Origin: Bdellovibrio sp. KM01 | GTDB taxonomy: Bacteria; Bdellovibrionota; Bdellovibrionia; Bdellovibrionales; Bdellovibrionaceae | Reading direction: 5' to 3' | DNA: 64,000 bases | NCBI RefSeq assembly: GCF_013752535.1 | Contig: NZ_CP058348.1 | Coordinates: forward strand, 1,116,001-1,180,000 | Translations under genes and position numbers: made by a program | In this document: positions 11,855-19,856 of the stretch, one piece after another | Layout of the letters: every line of letters begins with the position of its first letter | Numbering within the stretch: the stretch's first letter is position 1 | The notes under the pieces: model-generated | Told to the model about the DNA's origin: nothing | The model's input: only the letters and a program-made list of their open reading frames with translations | The model's database searches: none

Positions 11855-13396
11855 ATGCAACTTACCGGTGAAAACATCACTATTGAAAACCTCTATAAAG
11901 CCGCGCACACACCCTCCATGAAAGTGGAGTTGGCGGACTCAGCCCGTGCTGCGATGAAAAAGTCCCGTGACTACATTGAAGGCCGCATTTCGGGTGGCGA
12001 AGTGATGTATGGCGTGAACACAGGTTTTGGTGCCTTTTCTTCGGTTCGTATTTCTGATTCTGAAATCGAACAACTGCAAAGAAACTTGATCCGTTCTCAC
12101 TCCATGGGGATCGGTGCCCCTTTCACAAAAACTGAAACACGCGCGATGATGATCTTGCGTGCGAATGCTTTGGCTAAAGGTCACAGCGGTATTCGTCCGA
12201 CGGTGGTCGATAAAATTTTGGAATTTTTGAATAACGACATCATCCCGGTTGTGCCTTCTCAAGGTTCTGTGGGTGCATCAGGTGACTTAGCACCACTTTC
12301 TCACTTGGCACTGACGATCATCGGTGAAGGTGAGGCTTGGGGAGCTGACGGCAAACCAGTTCACGTTAAAGAACTTTTGGAAAAGAAAAAAATCACAGCT
12401 CTTGAATTGAAAGCCAAAGAAGGTCTTTCGATGATCAATGGTTGTCAGGTGATGACGTCCATCGGTTTGCTTTCTTTGTGGGAAGCCCGTCGCTTGTTGT
12501 GGATCGCAGATCTTGCCGGAGCCATGACTCTTGAAGGTATGAGAGGTTCCAGAAAACCTTTCGATCCGTTGATTCAAGCCAGCCGTCCTCACGCCGGCGA
12601 AGGTAAAACAGGTCGCAATCTTATCAAACTTATGGGTGAGTCGAGCGAAATCGGCGACAGCCATTTGCATGAACACCAAGATCACCGCGTTCAGGATGCT
12701 TACTCTCTTCGTTGCATGCCTGCGGTTCACGGTGCTGCGAAAGATGGTATCCGTCACGCTGTTAAAGTTTTGGAAATCGAAGCGAACTCTTCCACTGACA
12801 ATCCGTTGGTATTCGCTGATGCGAACAAAGTTCTTTCTTGCGGTAACTTTCACGGGATGCCAGTGGCACACGCGATGGATTTCGCGGGTATCGTGATTTC
12901 TTCTCAAGCCAGCATTTCTGAGTGCCGAATTTCTAAATTGATTTCGACACAAATGAGCGACCTTCCTCCATTCTTGACACCAAACGGTGGTTTGAACTCA
13001 GGTCACATGATCGTACAAGTGGCAGCAGCTTCTTTGGTGAGCGAAAACAAAGTTTTGGCACATCCGGCGTCTGTGGATTCCATTCCGACTTCTGCAGAAA
13101 AAGAAGACCACGTTTCCATGGGAACCATTGCAGCAAGAAAATTTGCACAAATCCTAAGAAACGCAGAACATGTGGTAGCAATGGAATTGCTTTCCGGTGC
13201 GCAAGCGATTGATTTGATTGCGCCATTGAAACCATCCGCAGCGGTTAAAGCTGTGCATGATCACATCAGAAAAACAGTTCCGTTCGCCAAAGAAGACCGT
13301 ATCTTCCACAAAGACGTCGAAGCCATCAAAGCAATGATGATCTCTGGGGAGTTGATGAACGTTGTCGAAAAAACAGTGGGTGAACTGGAGTGGTAA
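11855..13396 (+). CDS. hutH: Histidine ammonia-lyase
   Basis: A 513-residue enzyme, normal for the family, that deaminates L-histidine to trans-urocanate as the first step of histidine use. The Ala141-Ser142-Gly143 triplet that cyclises to the MIO electrophile is present in GSVGASGDLAPLSH. Also seen are YGVNTGFG (about 52-59), NGCQVMTS and QDAYSLRCMPAVHGA. I chose ATG 11855; the frame is open 105 bp further up, but that part holds the preceding terminator. hutU and hutI are in this window but not adjacent, so hutH appears to be its own transcription unit, closed by the terminator at 13426. Confidence 0.96.
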   Translation: MQLTGENITIENLYKAAHTPSMKVELADSARAAMKKSRDYIEGRISGGEVMYGVNTGFGAFSSVRISDSEIEQLQRNLIRSHSMGIGAPFTKTETRAMMILRANALAKGHSGIRPTVVDKILEFLNNDIIPVVPSQGSVGASGDLAPLSHLALTIIGEGEAWGADGKPVHVKELLEKKKITALELKAKEGLSMINGCQVMTSIGLLSLWEARRLLWIADLAGAMTLEGMRGSRKPFDPLIQASRPHAGEGKTGRNLIKLMGESSEIGDSHLHEHQDHRVQDAYSLRCMPAVHGAAKDGIRHAVKVLEIEANSSTDNPLVFADANKVLSCGNFHGMPVAHAMDFAGIVISSQASISECRISKLISTQMSDLPPFLTPNGGLNSGHMIVQVAAASLVSENKVLAHPASVDSIPTSAEKEDHVSMGTIAARKFAQILRNAEHVVAMELLSGAQAIDLIAPLKPSAAVKAVHDHIRKTVPFAKEDRIFHKDVEAIKAMMISGELMNVVEKTVGELEW

Positions 13397-13425
13397 TCTG
13401 ACCGCGCCAAGCTCGATGAATTAGG

Positions 13426-13460
13426 AAAAGCCTGTCGATGAATTTGACAGGCTTTTTTTA
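13426..13460 (+). terminator. Hairpin terminator after hutH
   Basis: AAAAGCCTGTC and GACAGGCTTTT pair around a 9-base loop, followed by T-rich sequence. Confidence 0.9.
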
Positions 13461-13620
13461 TTTTCCCTCTCTCAAGATTCCTTCCGTGTCTCCGTCTGAT
13501 ACAGCTCCAAAGTATCTCGGTAATCTGGGCATTGAATCATCATTTAGTCTCTGGGGAACAGATCTATTTTGCCTGCAGAGATACCGATATCAGTTACAAT
13601 AGATATTCGGGGGATAAAAG

Positions 13621-14694
13621 ATGAAGGCACAATCAAAAATCGGGGTTGGATTAACAACTCTGCTCCTTTTATCTACGGGTTGCGCACCTTCAGGAAATTC
13701 CTGGCAAGCAGACTATGCATCCACTTCAGAAGAGTCTGGACAAGAGGTAAAACCAACGCCGACACCTTCGCCATCTCCATCTCCATCTCCATCTCCTTCT
13801 CCTTCTCCTTCTCCTTCTCCTTCTCCTTCAGTGACACCTAAACCTACAGTAACGCCATCTCCATCTCCGACCGTAACACCGTCTCCGTCTCCAACAGTTA
13901 CGCCGTCACCTACGGTAAGTCCATCGCCATCTCCGACTGTCACTCCATCACCGACGGCGCCAGCGCAAACTATTACGGATATAGTGAATAGTCAGATGGC
14001 GACCTCTCACGAAGCCAAAATTCCTGATATTCGTTACGAATGGCAAAAGAAACCGGAAATTATCATGCAGTCGCCTGCGGCTGCAGATATTCCAAGTTGG
14101 TTTCCTTACACGAAGCCCGCATGGTGTACACTGCTCAATTCCTGGATGCAGGTTTATGAAGCCGAAGGCAATACTGCGACCAACACTCGTGTGCAATACC
14201 GCAATATGAAGATCTATATTCTTTCGGAAGCGACTCGCAAATGGAGCCTTTTGGTGACGGATGCAGCTCCCGATACCGACACGTGGAAATATCCATTTGA
14301 TTTTGCTTCGTCGGGCGGAACGCGAGCTGAAACAACTGGCGGAGTTTCGTTTAAACCGAAGTATCCGCAATTTGCACACGGCTATGGATCGCAAAACACG
14401 ATCCAGCCTCAAGACGTGCGTGCGGTCTTTGTTACCATGGATACGCGTTTGGTTTTGGATAAGGCGACAGGCACAGATGATCGCGCTTCTGCACGCTACT
14501 TGGTGAACGTGGGGGCTGATTATTGGCCCAATGCTCAGGCCGTGAATACATCCTGGTCTTATGCGCCAGGCGTGGGGCAGGGTCGATTTATTCTAGCGAC
14601 TCCCGAATGGAGAAAGGCAACTATGATCGTGCCTAACGGCCGATATGGTTCATCCATGCAGGAGATGATCTCCAATCCACCGCCACTGGATTAA
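13621..14694 (+). CDS. Exported lipoprotein with PSPSP-repeat linker
   Basis: A 357-residue protein. The N-terminus is a lipoprotein signal with lipobox LSTGC (Cys21). Residues about 42-116 are a Pro/Ser/Thr linker built from PSP and PTVTPSP units. The C-terminal domain (about 118-357) is not one I recognise; it has Trp-rich strands such as [18 protein letters not shown] and [14 protein letters not shown]. The linker is encoded by tandem hexamers (13774-13838), which can change linker length without shifting frame. The start ATG 13621 follows GGGGGATAAAAG. Probably displayed on the outer membrane through its lipid anchor. Confidence 0.82.
13774..13838 (+). repeat. In-frame tandem hexamer repeats
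   Basis: Successive CCATCT units followed by CCTTCT units encode Pro-Ser dipeptides inside the lipoprotein gene. A unit of 6 bp keeps the frame, so slippage would change linker length only. Confidence 0.85.
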
Positions 14695-14827
14695 TAATTT
14701 AAATCCCCAAATAAGAAGCGCTGCAGAACCTGATCAGGGTTTTGCTGTGCTTTTGCAGAAAATCGATAGCTTCTTTTGATTCCCTCACAAAGATGGTGCT
14801 AGATTGGCGGCATCTAGAGGAGTTGAT

Positions 14828-15211
14828 ATGAAAGCATTGACGGTGTTGATTCTTACAAGTTTCTTGGTGGTTCCAGCGTTTGCGAAAAAAACGATTTGGG
14901 TGACGGGAACTGGTAGTGCTTCTGGTTCTTGCAAAGGTGGAGATTCTTTCTGCCCGCGCAACCTTCAATCGCGCGCAGAAACTACTGCGAAAAACAATGC
15001 GAGTTCAACTTGCACGATCAAAGGTGGAGTAACGATGGGTATTCCATCTTGTTCCGCTCATTGCTCACCGGGATATATTTCCCCAGGCAACAGCGCATGG
15101 GTTAGCTGCAATGCCAGCTGCCGTGTAAGCTGCCGAGTGGACGACAACGTTCCAGGCTTCGGTTTGCAACCAAATGGTTTCTTCGAAGGCTCCGACGACG
15201 AGATTTACTAA
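14828..15211 (+). CDS. Small exported cysteine-rich protein
   Basis: A 127-residue protein with a signal peptide (about 1-19, VPAFA|KK) and ten cysteines in the mature part, including CSAHC, CNASC and CRVSC spacings. Ten cysteines in about 108 residues suggest five disulfides and a periplasmic or released protein; no known toxin or inhibitor family could be assigned. ATG 14828 has GAGGAGTTGAT just upstream. The acidic tail EGSDDEIY is notable. It is flanked by a lipoprotein gene and the tailspike-like gene, both also exported. Confidence 0.75.
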   Translation: MKALTVLILTSFLVVPAFAKKTIWVTGTGSASGSCKGGDSFCPRNLQSRAETTAKNNASSTCTIKGGVTMGIPSCSAHCSPGYISPGNSAWVSCNASCRVSCRVDDNVPGFGLQPNGFFEGSDDEIY

Positions 15212-15599
15212 ATTTAGATTTCCGATCGCTCGGGGAATGCTAATTCTATACATGCACTTGTTTCTATCCAAAGCCTGTCCCTAAAAAGACGGGCTTTGTC
15301 GCGTTTATAGGCAGTCCTGCGGCGATAATCCACGTACGAAATTGAATCATGCCAGACCTGGAAAATGAAATAGTGTCCTCTGAAATTAGCGGCGGAAAAA
15401 TTTGGATTCGGTCGTGAGGAGCTGTTTAAATCGCCGTCATTTAGTTTTACAAAATAATTGAGTTTCTGCTCTCGTTTGCTCCAGGAGATTACGACGACCC
15501 GCTATTGACGCTTTGGAGGCCACAGCCGGATCCTAATAACATCTTGAACAGAAAATCTGGGGCTGATCTCTGCAGCTTCAATTAACATAAGGATGATTC
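15212..15599. other. Non-coding stretch of 388 bp
   Basis: No convincing reading frame. It holds a hairpin at 15270-15297 (AAAGCCTGTC pairing with GACGGGCTTT) that could end the Cys-rich gene, although no T-run follows. No promoter stands out; AAGGATG at 15588-15594 is the ribosome binding site of the next gene. Confidence 0.6.
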
Positions 15600-17432
15600 A
15601 TGCAAAGAAGACAAGTCTTGCAATCCGTGGGTAGCTCTTTGGTCACTGCTCTGTCACTCGCTACTATTTCCAGAACTGCCGAAGCAGCTGTTTTGCCAGC
15701 AAGTTTGGCTCAGGGAGAACTCGGGTCTGTAGCAGAGCTGCGTACGACACGCCCTTCAGCTAATGGCGCAAAGATGATAGTAAGAAGCTACCATTCTGGG
15801 CTTAATGTTGGTGGTGGCGACTTTGTCGGTTACTTGTCAAGTGGAACAGATGATGGCGGGACTGTCTTTGCTGGCAGTGGTTTTTATTGGCGTCGCGTGA
15901 TCAATGATCCCAACAATCTGACGGTGTTTGATTTTGGTGCAAAGGCCGACGGTAAAACTGATGCATTATCAGCGGTCAGAGCGATGTTTGATTGGTCAAA
16001 AGCTAACTATCCGACACTTGGCATTCAGTTTCCTGCGGGCACGTTTTTTATGTCTGGTTTTAATTTTGGAGCAGCAGAAATACCATTCTTCCGTATGGCG
16101 GGAGCGAACGTAAATTTCGGTTATTTCGCGGGGACAACGTTGCTCTCGGATGGAGCTACGAGTTCTTTGATTAAAGTAAATGCGCGCAGGGTAGAGCTTT
16201 CAAATCTGGTCTTCAAGGGACAGGCTGATACAAAACCAAATTACCAAGGCTTCTTTGATAATATTTGTACTGGCGGGCAGTTTTTCCGAGGGTCTTGTTT
16301 GCGCTTTGATAAAGTTGGGGGCGCTTCTATAAGTCTTATGGATACACTAGATTGCAAAATTGACCAATTTTACGCAAGTGCCTGTCAAAATGATGTGATC
16401 AGAGCCCGTTGGTCAGGGCGAGCAGCCGGAAATTGGGATCACAGCACTGCGATTGAACTTTCCAATTTCAATTTGCAAAATTGTAAAAGCGGAAAGGTTT
16501 TAAACTTACCACGCTGTACTCAGTCGCTTATTTATAATGGATGGATCGAGCACTGTACTAATCCAGGAGATATCTCCAACGGACAATGGATTCTTGATGC
16601 ATTCAGTATTGAAGACTGTGAGAATCCGTTGAACGCGCGTTGGTCGCGCTTGAATTCGCGTCAGATTAATTTGCAATCTGGAAGCAGTATTGACAATACG
16701 ATGCAGGGCACTGACCCTAGCCGCTGGTTGAGTGCTTGGGAGATGGGTTCCTCGAGAGTGGAGTCCTTTGGTGCCGCTTTCGACGGCAGTCTGAAATACA
16801 ACTTCCTTACTTCACGTTTTAGATTGAGCAACGATACCGGTCAGGCGACTTGGTTTGAGTTAGGGAATTTCTTTACGCCTAACATGGGAGATAGTTGGGA
16901 AATTGAACTATTTGGTCAAACACAGTACGGCAACGGTAGTGATACTCAGGCACTCATGAATCCGGTGAATGGAAAAACCACCGGCGGGCGCGCTATCATT
17001 CATATGCAACACAAAACGGATAAGTTGGCGGAGGCCAGTTGGTCAGCGGAAGGAAACTCGCCCGTGCTGGAAGTGCGAATTTTGCCCCGCTCCGCCACAG
17101 ATGCCAAAGTATACGTGAAGATTGCTAACTGGACGCCGGTAGTTATGGTGGTAATGAAAACCAACGGTAAGGATCGCTTTATGGCGGGGCAATGCGTACG
17201 CTTTGACGCCACCATGACAGCTACAACTCCTCCGAGTGGCAATATAGTAGCTCCTCAGCGTTTTAGTTTGCACAATGGAAAAGCCGGAATCGGTGGTAAT
17301 GAGAACGGAGATTTGTTGATGGCGTCGCGGGTTCTAACTGCTTCGCAGGTCGACACTAGCAAAGCCAAAGGCTACTTGTCGGTGGTGATCAATGGTGAAC
17401 AAGTTGCCATTCCTTATTTTGATGTAAAGTAA
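15600..17432 (+). CDS. Tat-exported, phage-tailspike-like right-handed beta-helix protein
   Basis: A 610-residue protein. The N-terminus MQRRQVLQSVGSSL is a plausible twin-arginine signal ending near AEA. Residues about 40-100 (GSVAELR, then the D-x-GGT-V-F segment, then FYWRRV) resemble the module seen just before the catalytic helix in many phage tailspikes. It is followed by VFDFGAKADGKTDA, the start signature of the pectate-lyase-3 beta-helix family. Short repeated strands of about 20-25 residues with N-rich turns run to about residue 370, with a jellyroll-like C-terminal half. Such proteins bind or cut polysaccharides; no catalytic residues can be assigned by eye. It is a single gene without phage neighbours. 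Confidence 0.75.
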   Translation: MQRRQVLQSVGSSLVTALSLATISRTAEAAVLPASLAQGELGSVAELRTTRPSANGAKMIVRSYHSGLNVGGGDFVGYLSSGTDDGGTVFAGSGFYWRRVINDPNNLTVFDFGAKADGKTDALSAVRAMFDWSKANYPTLGIQFPAGTFFMSGFNFGAAEIPFFRMAGANVNFGYFAGTTLLSDGATSSLIKVNARRVELSNLVFKGQADTKPNYQGFFDNICTGGQFFRGSCLRFDKVGGASISLMDTLDCKIDQFYASACQNDVIRARWSGRAAGNWDHSTAIELSNFNLQNCKSGKVLNLPRCTQSLIYNGWIEHCTNPGDISNGQWILDAFSIEDCENPLNARWSRLNSRQINLQSGSSIDNTMQGTDPSRWLSAWEMGSSRVESFGAAFDGSLKYNFLTSRFRLSNDTGQATWFELGNFFTPNMGDSWEIELFGQTQYGNGSDTQALMNPVNGKTTGGRAIIHMQHKTDKLAEASWSAEGNSPVLEVRILPRSATDAKVYVKIANWTPVVMVVMKTNGKDRFMAGQCVRFDATMTATTPPSGNIVAPQRFSLHNGKAGIGGNENGDLLMASRVLTASQVDTSKAKGYLSVVINGEQVAIPYFDVK

Positions 17433-17450
17433 AATTCTTGTTTCCAATCC

Positions 17451-17478
17451 AAAGCCTGATCAGAAATGATCAGGCTTT
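17451..17478. terminator. Hairpin terminator shared by convergent genes
   Basis: AAAGCCTGATCA and TGATCAGGCTTT form a 12 bp perfect stem with a GAAA loop. The stop codon of the minus-strand DTW gene (17460-17462) lies inside the stem. Confidence 0.8.
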
Positions 17479-18074
17479 ATGCCGCGACCTTGAAGCGTGC
17501 CTTCAAGTTTTGCTCGATACAATTTCATCAAAGGTTCTTTTGCGGCATCACCTTCAATAATTCCGATAGCTTCCGCGATGGCTTGCAAGGTCGCCATTCC
17601 CTCTGGAGTGTTTTCTGCGCGCATGTGGACTGGTGACTGATTCGGAGTTTTGATCATCACTCGCGGGACATCTTTTAATTCATGATGGCGATAGTGAACT
17701 TTGCTGGCTTGGCGCCAATTTCCATCCGGAACAATCAATTGAATCGGGCGGGGATCTTCGGCGACAAACTCTGCCGTCAATTCCCTGGCATCATCTGCAG
17801 GATAAAACATGACGGTGCGATACTGAGGTGTCAGTAAATCACTTAAGTCCAAAGCATTTTGATCAGCTCCGCGGATGCGCATTTCGCTATTCACCAGTGC
17901 TTCAATCGCCAAGCGCCCGGTATTGGTAGTACGTTTTAGTTCCTTGGCGTGAACCACCAGGCACAGGCGGGTTTTCAGTGTAAGTTTCGGAATGAACGCA
18001 CAGACACAGCGGCTTTTGTTTAAAAAGCACACGGGACAAGGGTCTTTGGTCTTTCTTTTGCGTTCTAGAGTCAT
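17460..18074 (-). CDS. DTW-domain protein, probable tRNA-uridine aminocarboxypropyltransferase
   Basis: A 204-residue protein. DTW-domain enzymes (TapT/YfiP and relatives) transfer the aminocarboxypropyl group of S-adenosylmethionine to a tRNA uridine. The N-terminal zinc-type cluster [13 protein letters not shown] (about 13-25) and the [10 protein letters not shown] and [17 protein letters not shown] segments are family features. The name-giving DxTW motif reads DGNW here (about 123-126), so Thr is Asn; this occurs at the proposed active site and makes activity less certain. It is divergent from hutU, with a strong hairpin between the two genes. Confidence 0.85.
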
Positions 18075-18132
18075 CGACGTATGTCTATCGTGCCGGTTTG
18101 GACAGTCAATTTATCCTTCCTTGCTGCGCCGC

Positions 18133-18172
18133 ACCCCCGAAAGGTACGGCGTACCTTTCGGGGGTATTTTTT
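18133..18172 (+). terminator. Strong hairpin with T-run in the hutU leader (candidate attenuator)
   Basis: Two perfect 15-base arms (18133-18147 and 18151-18165, starting ACCCCCGAAAGG) flank a GGC loop and are followed by ATTTTTT on the plus strand only. It lies 38 bp before the hutU start and downstream of no plus-strand gene. Confidence 0.7.
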
Positions 18173-18209
18173 GTTAGGTTCTAGCTCTTCAGATTTCAAA
18201 GGAGAGCAC

Positions 18210-19856
18210 ATGTCTCGCGTCGTTAAGGCCCCAACGGGTAATAAGATGGTTTGTAAAGGCTGGCTGCAAGAGGCCGCTTACCGCATGATCCAAAACAATT
18301 TGGATCCTTCTATCGCAGAACATCCAGAAAATCTTGTCGTGTACGGTGGTATTGGTAAAGCTGCTCGTAACTGGGAATGCTTCGATAAAATCTTGGAAGC
18401 GCTTAAAAATCTGGAAAATGACGAAACTCTTTTGGTTCAATCTGGAAAACCCATCGGTATCTTGAAAACTCACGAAGACGCTCCTCGCGTTCTACTTGCG
18501 AACTCGAACCTTGTTCCCAAATGGGCCACTTGGGAAGTCTTCAATGAGTTGGATAAAAAAGGTTTGATGATGTACGGCCAGATGACGGCGGGTTCTTGGA
18601 TCTATATCGGAACTCAAGGGATCATCCAAGGAACTTACGAATCGTTCGTTGAGGCCGGTCGCCAGTACTTCAATGGTGATTTGAAAGGCCGCGTGATTTT
18701 GACTGCGGGCTTAGGCGGTATGGGTGGAGCACAACCTCTGGCAGGTGTATTCGCTGGGGCTTGCGTGCTTGCGGTTGAAATCGATCCAACTCGTATTCAA
18801 AAACGTCTTGAAACAAAATACATCGACGAAGTGGCAACAGACATCGACGATGCGATTGCTCGTATTAAAAAATACACAGCAGCTGGTGAAGCAAAATCCG
18901 TGGCCCTTCTTGGTAACATGGCGACAGTCATTCACCAATTGATCGACAAAGGTTTCACTCCGGATCTTTTGACAGACCAAACATCTGCGCATGATCCATT
19001 GGTGGGTTATATCCCTGAAGGTTACACAGTTGAGACTGCGAAAACTTTCCGTGAAAAAGATCAAACGGCTTACTTGAAAGCTGCATACGATTCTATGGCG
19101 AAACATGTTCGCGGTATGCTTGCGATGAAAGACAAGGGAGCCGTGACTTTCGATTACGGCAATAACTTGCGTGCACGTGCTCAAGAAGCGGGTGTTGAAA
19201 ATGCATTTGATTACCCAGGATTCGTTCCTGCGTTCATCCGTCCCTTGTTCTGTAAAGGCTCTGGTCCATTCCGTTGGGTTGCACTTTCTGGTGATCCGGC
19301 TGATATCAAAGTGACTGACGATGCGATGAGAAAACTATTCCCTCACAAAAAAGATCTTTTGCGTTGGTTGGATATGGCTGAAGAGCGTATCGCGTTCCAA
19401 GGTCTTCCGGCGCGTATCTGCTGGCTTGAATACGGCGAGCGTGCGAAAGCCGGCGCAATGCTGAATCAACTTGTGGCAGAGGGCAAAGTGAAAGCTCCAA
19501 TCGTTATCGGTCGTGACCATTTGGATTGCGGTTCTGTGGCGTCACCAAATCGTGAAACAGAAGCGATGAAGGACGGTTCCGATGCAGTCAGTGACTGGGC
19601 ATTGCTAAACGCCATGGTGAACACGGCGTGCGGAGCTACGTGGGTGAGCTTGCATCACGGTGGTGGTGTGGGTATGGGTTACAGCCAACACGCAGGACAA
19701 GTGATCGTGGCAGACGGCACTGAAAAAGCGGCTCGCAGGCTTGAGCGCGTATTAACTGCGGATCCAGCAATGGGCATCTTTAGACATTTGGACGCTGGTT
19801 ATGATCTTGCAAAACAAACTGCAAAAGAACGCGGCGTGAACAGCTGCTGGTTGTAA
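18210..19856 (+). CDS. hutU: Urocanate hydratase
   Basis: A 548-residue NAD-dependent enzyme that converts urocanate to imidazolonepropionate, the second step of histidine use. Length and motifs are normal: [17 protein letters not shown] near the N-terminus, [11 protein letters not shown], the [14 protein letters not shown] stretch, the NAD-binding [16 protein letters not shown] and the C-terminal [19 protein letters not shown] 18210 follows GGAGAGCAC; the frame is open further up, but that region holds the leader hairpin. No other hut gene adjoins it; the next gene is an unrelated ABC importer behind a terminator. Confidence 0.97.

Follow-up and report, generated by a model that had tools for sequence, protein, structure and literature searches.

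A headless WceF/AmsF-lineage gene of Bdellovibrio, predicted to encode an exported exopolysaccharide glycosidase that probably acts on prey slime

The gene at 15600-17432 of the window (the whole stretch of 64 kb that was analyzed) belongs to the WceF/AmsF lineage of tailspike-fold exopolysaccharide (EPS) glycosidases. According to the explanation that we favor, with a probability of roughly 0.55, it encodes a secreted polysaccharide hydrolase of this lineage, laterally shared with Erwiniaceae, that cuts the slime of the prey. A bacterial EPS glycosidase with a Tat signal and a tailspike fold is already known (WceF, described in passages of PMC7949094), and so is the presence of an "AmsF" in Bdellovibrio, reported in 2018 from the genome SKB1291214 and taken at that time as phage-associated and horizontally acquired (PMC5941755). 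Our search of the open-licence literature retrieved this 2018 note and, among the matches listed, no paper linking WceF to Bdellovibrio; the terms "exopolysaccharide" and "depolymerase" do not occur in the excerpt of PMC7137782.

The gene and the domains of its protein

The ORF listing of the window includes an ATG-started ORF of 610 amino acids that coincides exactly with the gene (Table 1). This is more than a chance ORF, since (i) five homologous copies, found in four Bdellovibrio genomes, are open over their full length, (ii) their pairwise dN/dS ratios range from 0.10 to 0.32, and (iii) the protein matches PHROG 4250 (phrog_4250, "EPS depolymerase") with an E-value of 4.4e-199. The gene noted by the first-pass annotation is thus real and intact, and it is under purifying selection. 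Its GC content is 47.3%, compared to 47.2% for the surrounding region.

Table 1. Features of the gene, of its protein and of its insertion site (window coordinates)
Feature	Position	Strand	Basis
Small protein with cysteines, secreted-looking; marks the left side of the insertion site	14828..15211	+	ORF; no Pfam match
Gene for a Tat-signal, tailspike-fold EPS glycosidase, headless WceF/AmsF lineage	15600..17432	+	ORF, PHROG, phmmer, tree, Foldseek, VIA
Putative twin-arginine signal peptide, aa 1-29 (QRRQVLQ ... AEA/A)	15600..15686	+	read from sequence; cleavage site inferred
Neck domain, aa 37-100 = WceF 166-229	15708..15899	+	phmmer alignment; WceF limits from passages of PMC7949094
Right-handed parallel beta-helix, aa 107-388	15918..16763	+	structure model, VIA, conserved acidic residues
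Jelly-roll beta-sandwich, aa 405-542 = WceF 531-667	16812..17225	+	alignment, structure model
C-terminal stem, aa 553-610 = WceF 678-735	17256..17429	+	alignment, structure model
Inverted repeat of 12 bp without mismatch, loop GAAA, between the glycosidase and DTW genes	17451..17478	.	by eye; terminator-like
Gene for a DTW-domain protein, convergent with the glycosidase gene; marks the right side of the insertion site	17460..18074	-	Pfam

The protein starts with MQRRQVLQSVGSSLVTALSLATISRTAEAA, continues with GSVAELR, which belongs to the neck, and then with FDFGAKADGKTD, at which the beta-helix begins. As read from the charge of the n-region and from the hydrophobicity, two adjacent arginines are followed in this start by a core of moderate hydrophobicity and an AxA end; the first-pass annotation had already recognized the twin-arginine signal. 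An M[K/Q]RR start, taken by our script wherever one occurred upstream, is present in all five genus copies and in 53 of 55 WceF loci (the two others being truncated ORFs), compared to none of 36 phage or viral relatives (rows that include at least one duplicate, L008 and L122 being from one contig) and none of 27 members of a second Erwiniaceae group. The window genome encodes TatC and has four secretin-domain genes. The protein would therefore be predicted from its signal to take the Tat route, and we infer a subsequent passage of the outer membrane.

In the alignment to WceF, the neck comes directly after the signal, and the P22-like head that separates them in WceF (residues 34-146) is absent. 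The neck starts at residue 39 in the window protein and at residue 50 in the copy L005, compared to about 160-179 in 52 of the 53 WceF rows that have an RR start, which indicates that the head is missing from the genus copies. The lone exception among WceF proteins, that of Pantoea sp. A4 (L045:6001-7896, 634 aa; neck start at 65), resembles the window protein in having its signal joined straight to the neck. Unlike the latter, it sits within the Erwiniaceae WceF clade and keeps the FSQRLA..GYQLIGE linker; its loss of the head therefore looks independent of that of the genus copies.

The acidic residues D85 and D121 and, within the beta-helix proper, the six residues D248, D251, D255, E286, E317 and E338 show no variation across the relatives that were aligned (47 of 47). 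On the basis of this conservation, the six helix residues are candidates for a putative active-site groove. A term search of the main text of the WceF paper (PMC7949094) returned neither "active site" nor "catalytic".

Structural matches

The first-pass annotation had recognized a tailspike architecture in the protein, and this reading stood. Among PDB sequences, phmmer matched residues 37-610 to 6TGF (WceF of Pantoea stewartii) with an E-value of 4.2e-253, the runner-up being a phage depolymerase matched over 79 residues (E = 4.5e-12). An AlphaFold2 monomer model built from a 47-row alignment has a mean pLDDT of 84.9 and a pTM of 0.65, residues 1-31 and 398-404 being below 50. With this model, Foldseek again placed 6TGF first (E = 9.7e-72, compared to 5.9e-14 for the first phage chain). 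VIA gave it a Z of 49.9 with 62% identity and an rmsd of 7.9 over 568 residues, a value that we take as reflecting the placement of the domains in a monomer model. Below 6TGF, VIA found tailspikes, with Z up to 27.6 for the next row, and alginate epimerases and polygalacturonases, with Z of about 21-24 on the helix alone. In the viral structure library, the best eight matches have 21-35% identity, and most of them are named EPS depolymerase. Model, Foldseek and VIA thus all revealed a right-handed parallel beta-helix with a tailspike neck. By analogy with WceF, the protein would form a trimer of such helices.

The neck, beta-helix, jelly roll and stem are homologous to those of 6TGF, and the Tat-type RR signal is also shared with WceF/AmsF. 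A pectate lyase or another plant-wall enzyme was considered and rejected, since the Pfam match to the pectate-lyase-like family PF12708 (17.8 bits) lies under the curated cut-off of 27 and polygalacturonases rank far below WceF in VIA; a closest match of the pectate-lyase type was not seen in the Foldseek comparison either.

Relatives and phylogeny

Among the 368 genomes of the phylum, only four carry the gene, all of them belonging to Bdellovibrio, in which they represent 4 of 24 genomes (species). Outside this genus, the best 80 of 140 relatives found among genome contigs (the 60 others being weaker) fall into two sets: 55 loci at 54-66% identity (L015-L069), whose titles name Pantoea, Erwinia, Mixta, Izhakiella, Enterobacter and other Enterobacterales, and 25 loci at 37-42% identity (L070-L094), which make up a second Erwiniaceae group devoid of the RR signal. 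When 394 genomes were sampled evenly from the order to which P. stewartii belongs, eight of them gave a match, five of these matches being of the WceF type (59-65% identity). Plasmids gave 15 matches, with a best identity of 40%; on Pantoea megaplasmids (L011, L014), the second-group gene follows an autotransporter-domain gene. The search of phage records matched 231 of them, with a best identity of 43.8% among the matches listed, and that of viral contigs revealed 29 loci, with a best identity of 44%.

A total of 123 loci were read, 16 of which (fragments or near-duplicates) were dropped before tree building, leaving 107; a quick tree included 68 rows and a careful tree, based on the columns from the neck to the end, 37. 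The careful tree unites the five genus copies with 19 WceF rows in one clade (100/100; support of 99 in the quick tree), outside which fall nine phage rows and four rows of the second Erwiniaceae group. Within this clade, the WceF rows are grouped at 100/100 and four of the genus copies at 100/98. The fifth copy, L005, is placed with Erwiniaceae WceF (support 96/91); it is also closer to Pantoea proteins (71% identity) than to the window protein (66-67%). A simple single transfer is therefore disfavored. It should be emphasized, however, that L005 occupies the same locus as the window gene and that a tree uniting all five genus copies in one clade could not be rejected (p-AU = 0.49).

The best reading of these data is that lateral transfer links the Erwiniaceae WceF genes and the Bdellovibrio copies. 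That Erwiniaceae were the source is an idea resting on the distribution and not on the tree, and the reverse direction is also possible. The proposal that a phage depolymerase had been taken over was not borne out: outside the genus, the closest relatives are cellular WceF/AmsF proteins with the same signal, the phage relatives being clearly further off. If the ultimate source was a phage, the gene was most likely captured before the genus and Erwiniaceae copies diverged.

Locus, neighbors and history

The gene neighbors, searched with Pfam and PHROGs (10 proteins), include a 357-aa lipoprotein-like protein, the small secreted-looking protein, hutH, the DTW gene, hutU, an ABC transporter and a NUDIX family protein. 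No phage structural cluster was found among these 10 proteins, in agreement with the first-pass annotation, which had noted no phage nearby; a partial match between the NUDIX protein and a PHROG named "portal protein" seems spurious. The 357-aa protein (13621-14694) has a long PTPSPSPS repeat and no Pfam match, and its version in the genome G012 has a different repeat; it is missing in the genomes G022 and G011, where the gap between hutH and the small protein is just 35 and 106 bases, respectively. The terminator scan did not list the inverted repeat of Table 1, and promoter and terminator scans near the gene gave no more than shuffled sequences. No RNA element was found in Rfam at the gathering threshold in 13300-18300, nor any tRNA gene in the window.

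The order hutH - small protein - glycosidase gene - DTW is common to the window genome (G000), G012 and G022, in which the copy is L005. Matches to the small protein occur in 21 of the 24 genomes of the genus, and several of these matches contain internal stops. In G011, just 35 bases lie between the portions of the small protein and of the DTW protein that were matched, i.e., the site is uninterrupted. The copy of this genome, L003 (region L124:6692-8867), lies at another place, with a tRNA-Leu gene about 0.2 kb away. tRNA genes are common integration sites. A second copy of G022, L004, is found at a third site. Contamination is excluded by the one-contig genome and by the same locus in G012 and G022.

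The dS values, obtained by NG86 (rough near or above 1; one pair not computable), are almost the same for the glycosidase gene and hutH at the shared site (0.777 vs 0.776 for G000-G022b), whereas they are lower for the glycosidase gene than for hutH in the comparisons of G000 with G011 (0.555 vs 1.033) and with G022a (0.605 vs 0.776). This suggests vertical descent of the glycosidase gene at the shared site, followed by its spread within the genus. The occurrence of the gene at three sites across the four carriers, together with the uninterrupted site of G011, would fit a small mobile prey-range cassette, i.e., the slime-trimming enzyme of the prey itself, acquired by the predator in headless form and moved between chromosomal sites within the genus, with only some species working through Erwiniaceae slime; we put this forward as a tentative idea. 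Since the gene is carried by just 4 of 24 species, it is dispensable for predation in general.

Function and alternative explanations

The role on a polysaccharide, perhaps that of the prey, proposed by the first-pass annotation is probable. According to passages of PMC7949094, WceF is a trimeric stewartan hydrolase with a Tat signal and a tailspike fold, encoded in an EPS cluster. The preferred reading would proceed as follows: a gene of this lineage would have been exchanged laterally between Erwiniaceae and a few Bdellovibrio species; its product would leave the cytoplasm folded, via Tat, and the mature protein would assemble as a trimer of beta-helices. This trimer may cut the stewartan/amylovoran-type EPS of Erwiniaceae prey, the analogy with WceF pointing to a beta-1,3-galactosyl link as the putative site, and by this cleavage the predator would be able to get through the prey slime or loosen it. 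Both the substrate and the role in predation are thus proposed by analogy. Two points speak against this reading: the head that WceF needs against aggregation in vitro, constructs without it aggregating (passages of PMC7949094), is missing here, and 54-66% identity to WceF (55 loci) does not fix the sugar bond. Pantoea sp. SOD02, isolated as prey for Bdellovibrio studies (PMC9583809), carries members of both groups, L024 being of the WceF type and L080 of the second group, and the prey range of Bdellovibrio SKB1291214 is described as limited to some Enterobacteriaceae (PMC5941755).

Binding rather than cutting may matter, since WceF is described as far slower than a phage enzyme and as agglutinating with stewartan (passages of PMC7949094). 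The protein could then be mainly a glycan-binding lectin, secreted or at the surface, that recognizes prey with little catalysis, in the manner of the MAT fibers of Bdellovibrio; these are secreted, phage-fiber-like and trimeric, and bind prey glycans (passages of PMC10769870). The fast evolution of the gene would suit such a lectin (68% amino acid identity against 97% for hutH, G000-G022b). However, the protein retains every acidic residue that does not vary among the phage and WceF relatives, which would be unexpected if catalysis had been lost, and Pfam found neither S74 nor any other known binding domain in it. Compared by description, MAT proteins have a conserved beta-rich domain of about 130 aa directly after the signal (passages of PMC10769870), whereas residues 37-610 of the window protein align to WceF. 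We regard a lectin as unlikely.

The functional analogy with WceF, whose mutants in Pantoea make longer stewartan (passages of PMC7949094), would rather lead to the trimming of the organism's own EPS. This is very unlikely, since a Poly_export (Wza) protein was found in none of the 24 Bdellovibrio genomes, including the window genome, but in all six WceF genomes tested, the E. coli control being positive; an own Wza-exported EPS is therefore improbable as the substrate, an argument that covers Poly_export routes only, so that an own substrate made by other EPS routes stays possible. Furthermore, the Poly_export gene of P. stewartii lies about 8 kb from wceF (G370 C32), whereas the window gene is outside any EPS biosynthesis cluster, among genes of histidine degradation and transport. 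The window organism, probably a predator, thus probably lacks the EPS that its enzyme would cut. A direct capture from a phage by Bdellovibrio, as a prophage remnant or a domesticated tailspike, would account for the PHROG 4250 match, the many matched phage records and a fold common in tailspikes; the gene indeed shares the family profile and fold with phrog_4250 EPS depolymerases of Erwinia, Pantoea and Xanthomonas phages. However, these are encoded by phage genomes, have at most 44% identity to the window protein, below that of the WceF loci, lack the RR signal and branch outside the clade uniting the genus copies and WceF, while the window gene does not encode a virion part amid phage genes. 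Such a capture is highly improbable.

Significance

The preferred reading of a secreted hydrolase directed at prey would mean that a type of enzyme used by plant-associated bacteria on their own slime is found here in a predator, which has probably turned it on its prey. To our knowledge, the way predators handle the capsules or slime of their prey, as well as the determinants of prey range, are largely open questions. A role on prey slime is directly testable here, since only one gene is concerned, few species of the genus have it, and the structure and the substrate of a homologue are known. Furthermore, the Bdellovibrio copies are natural headless WceF proteins, with which the function of the head could be studied.
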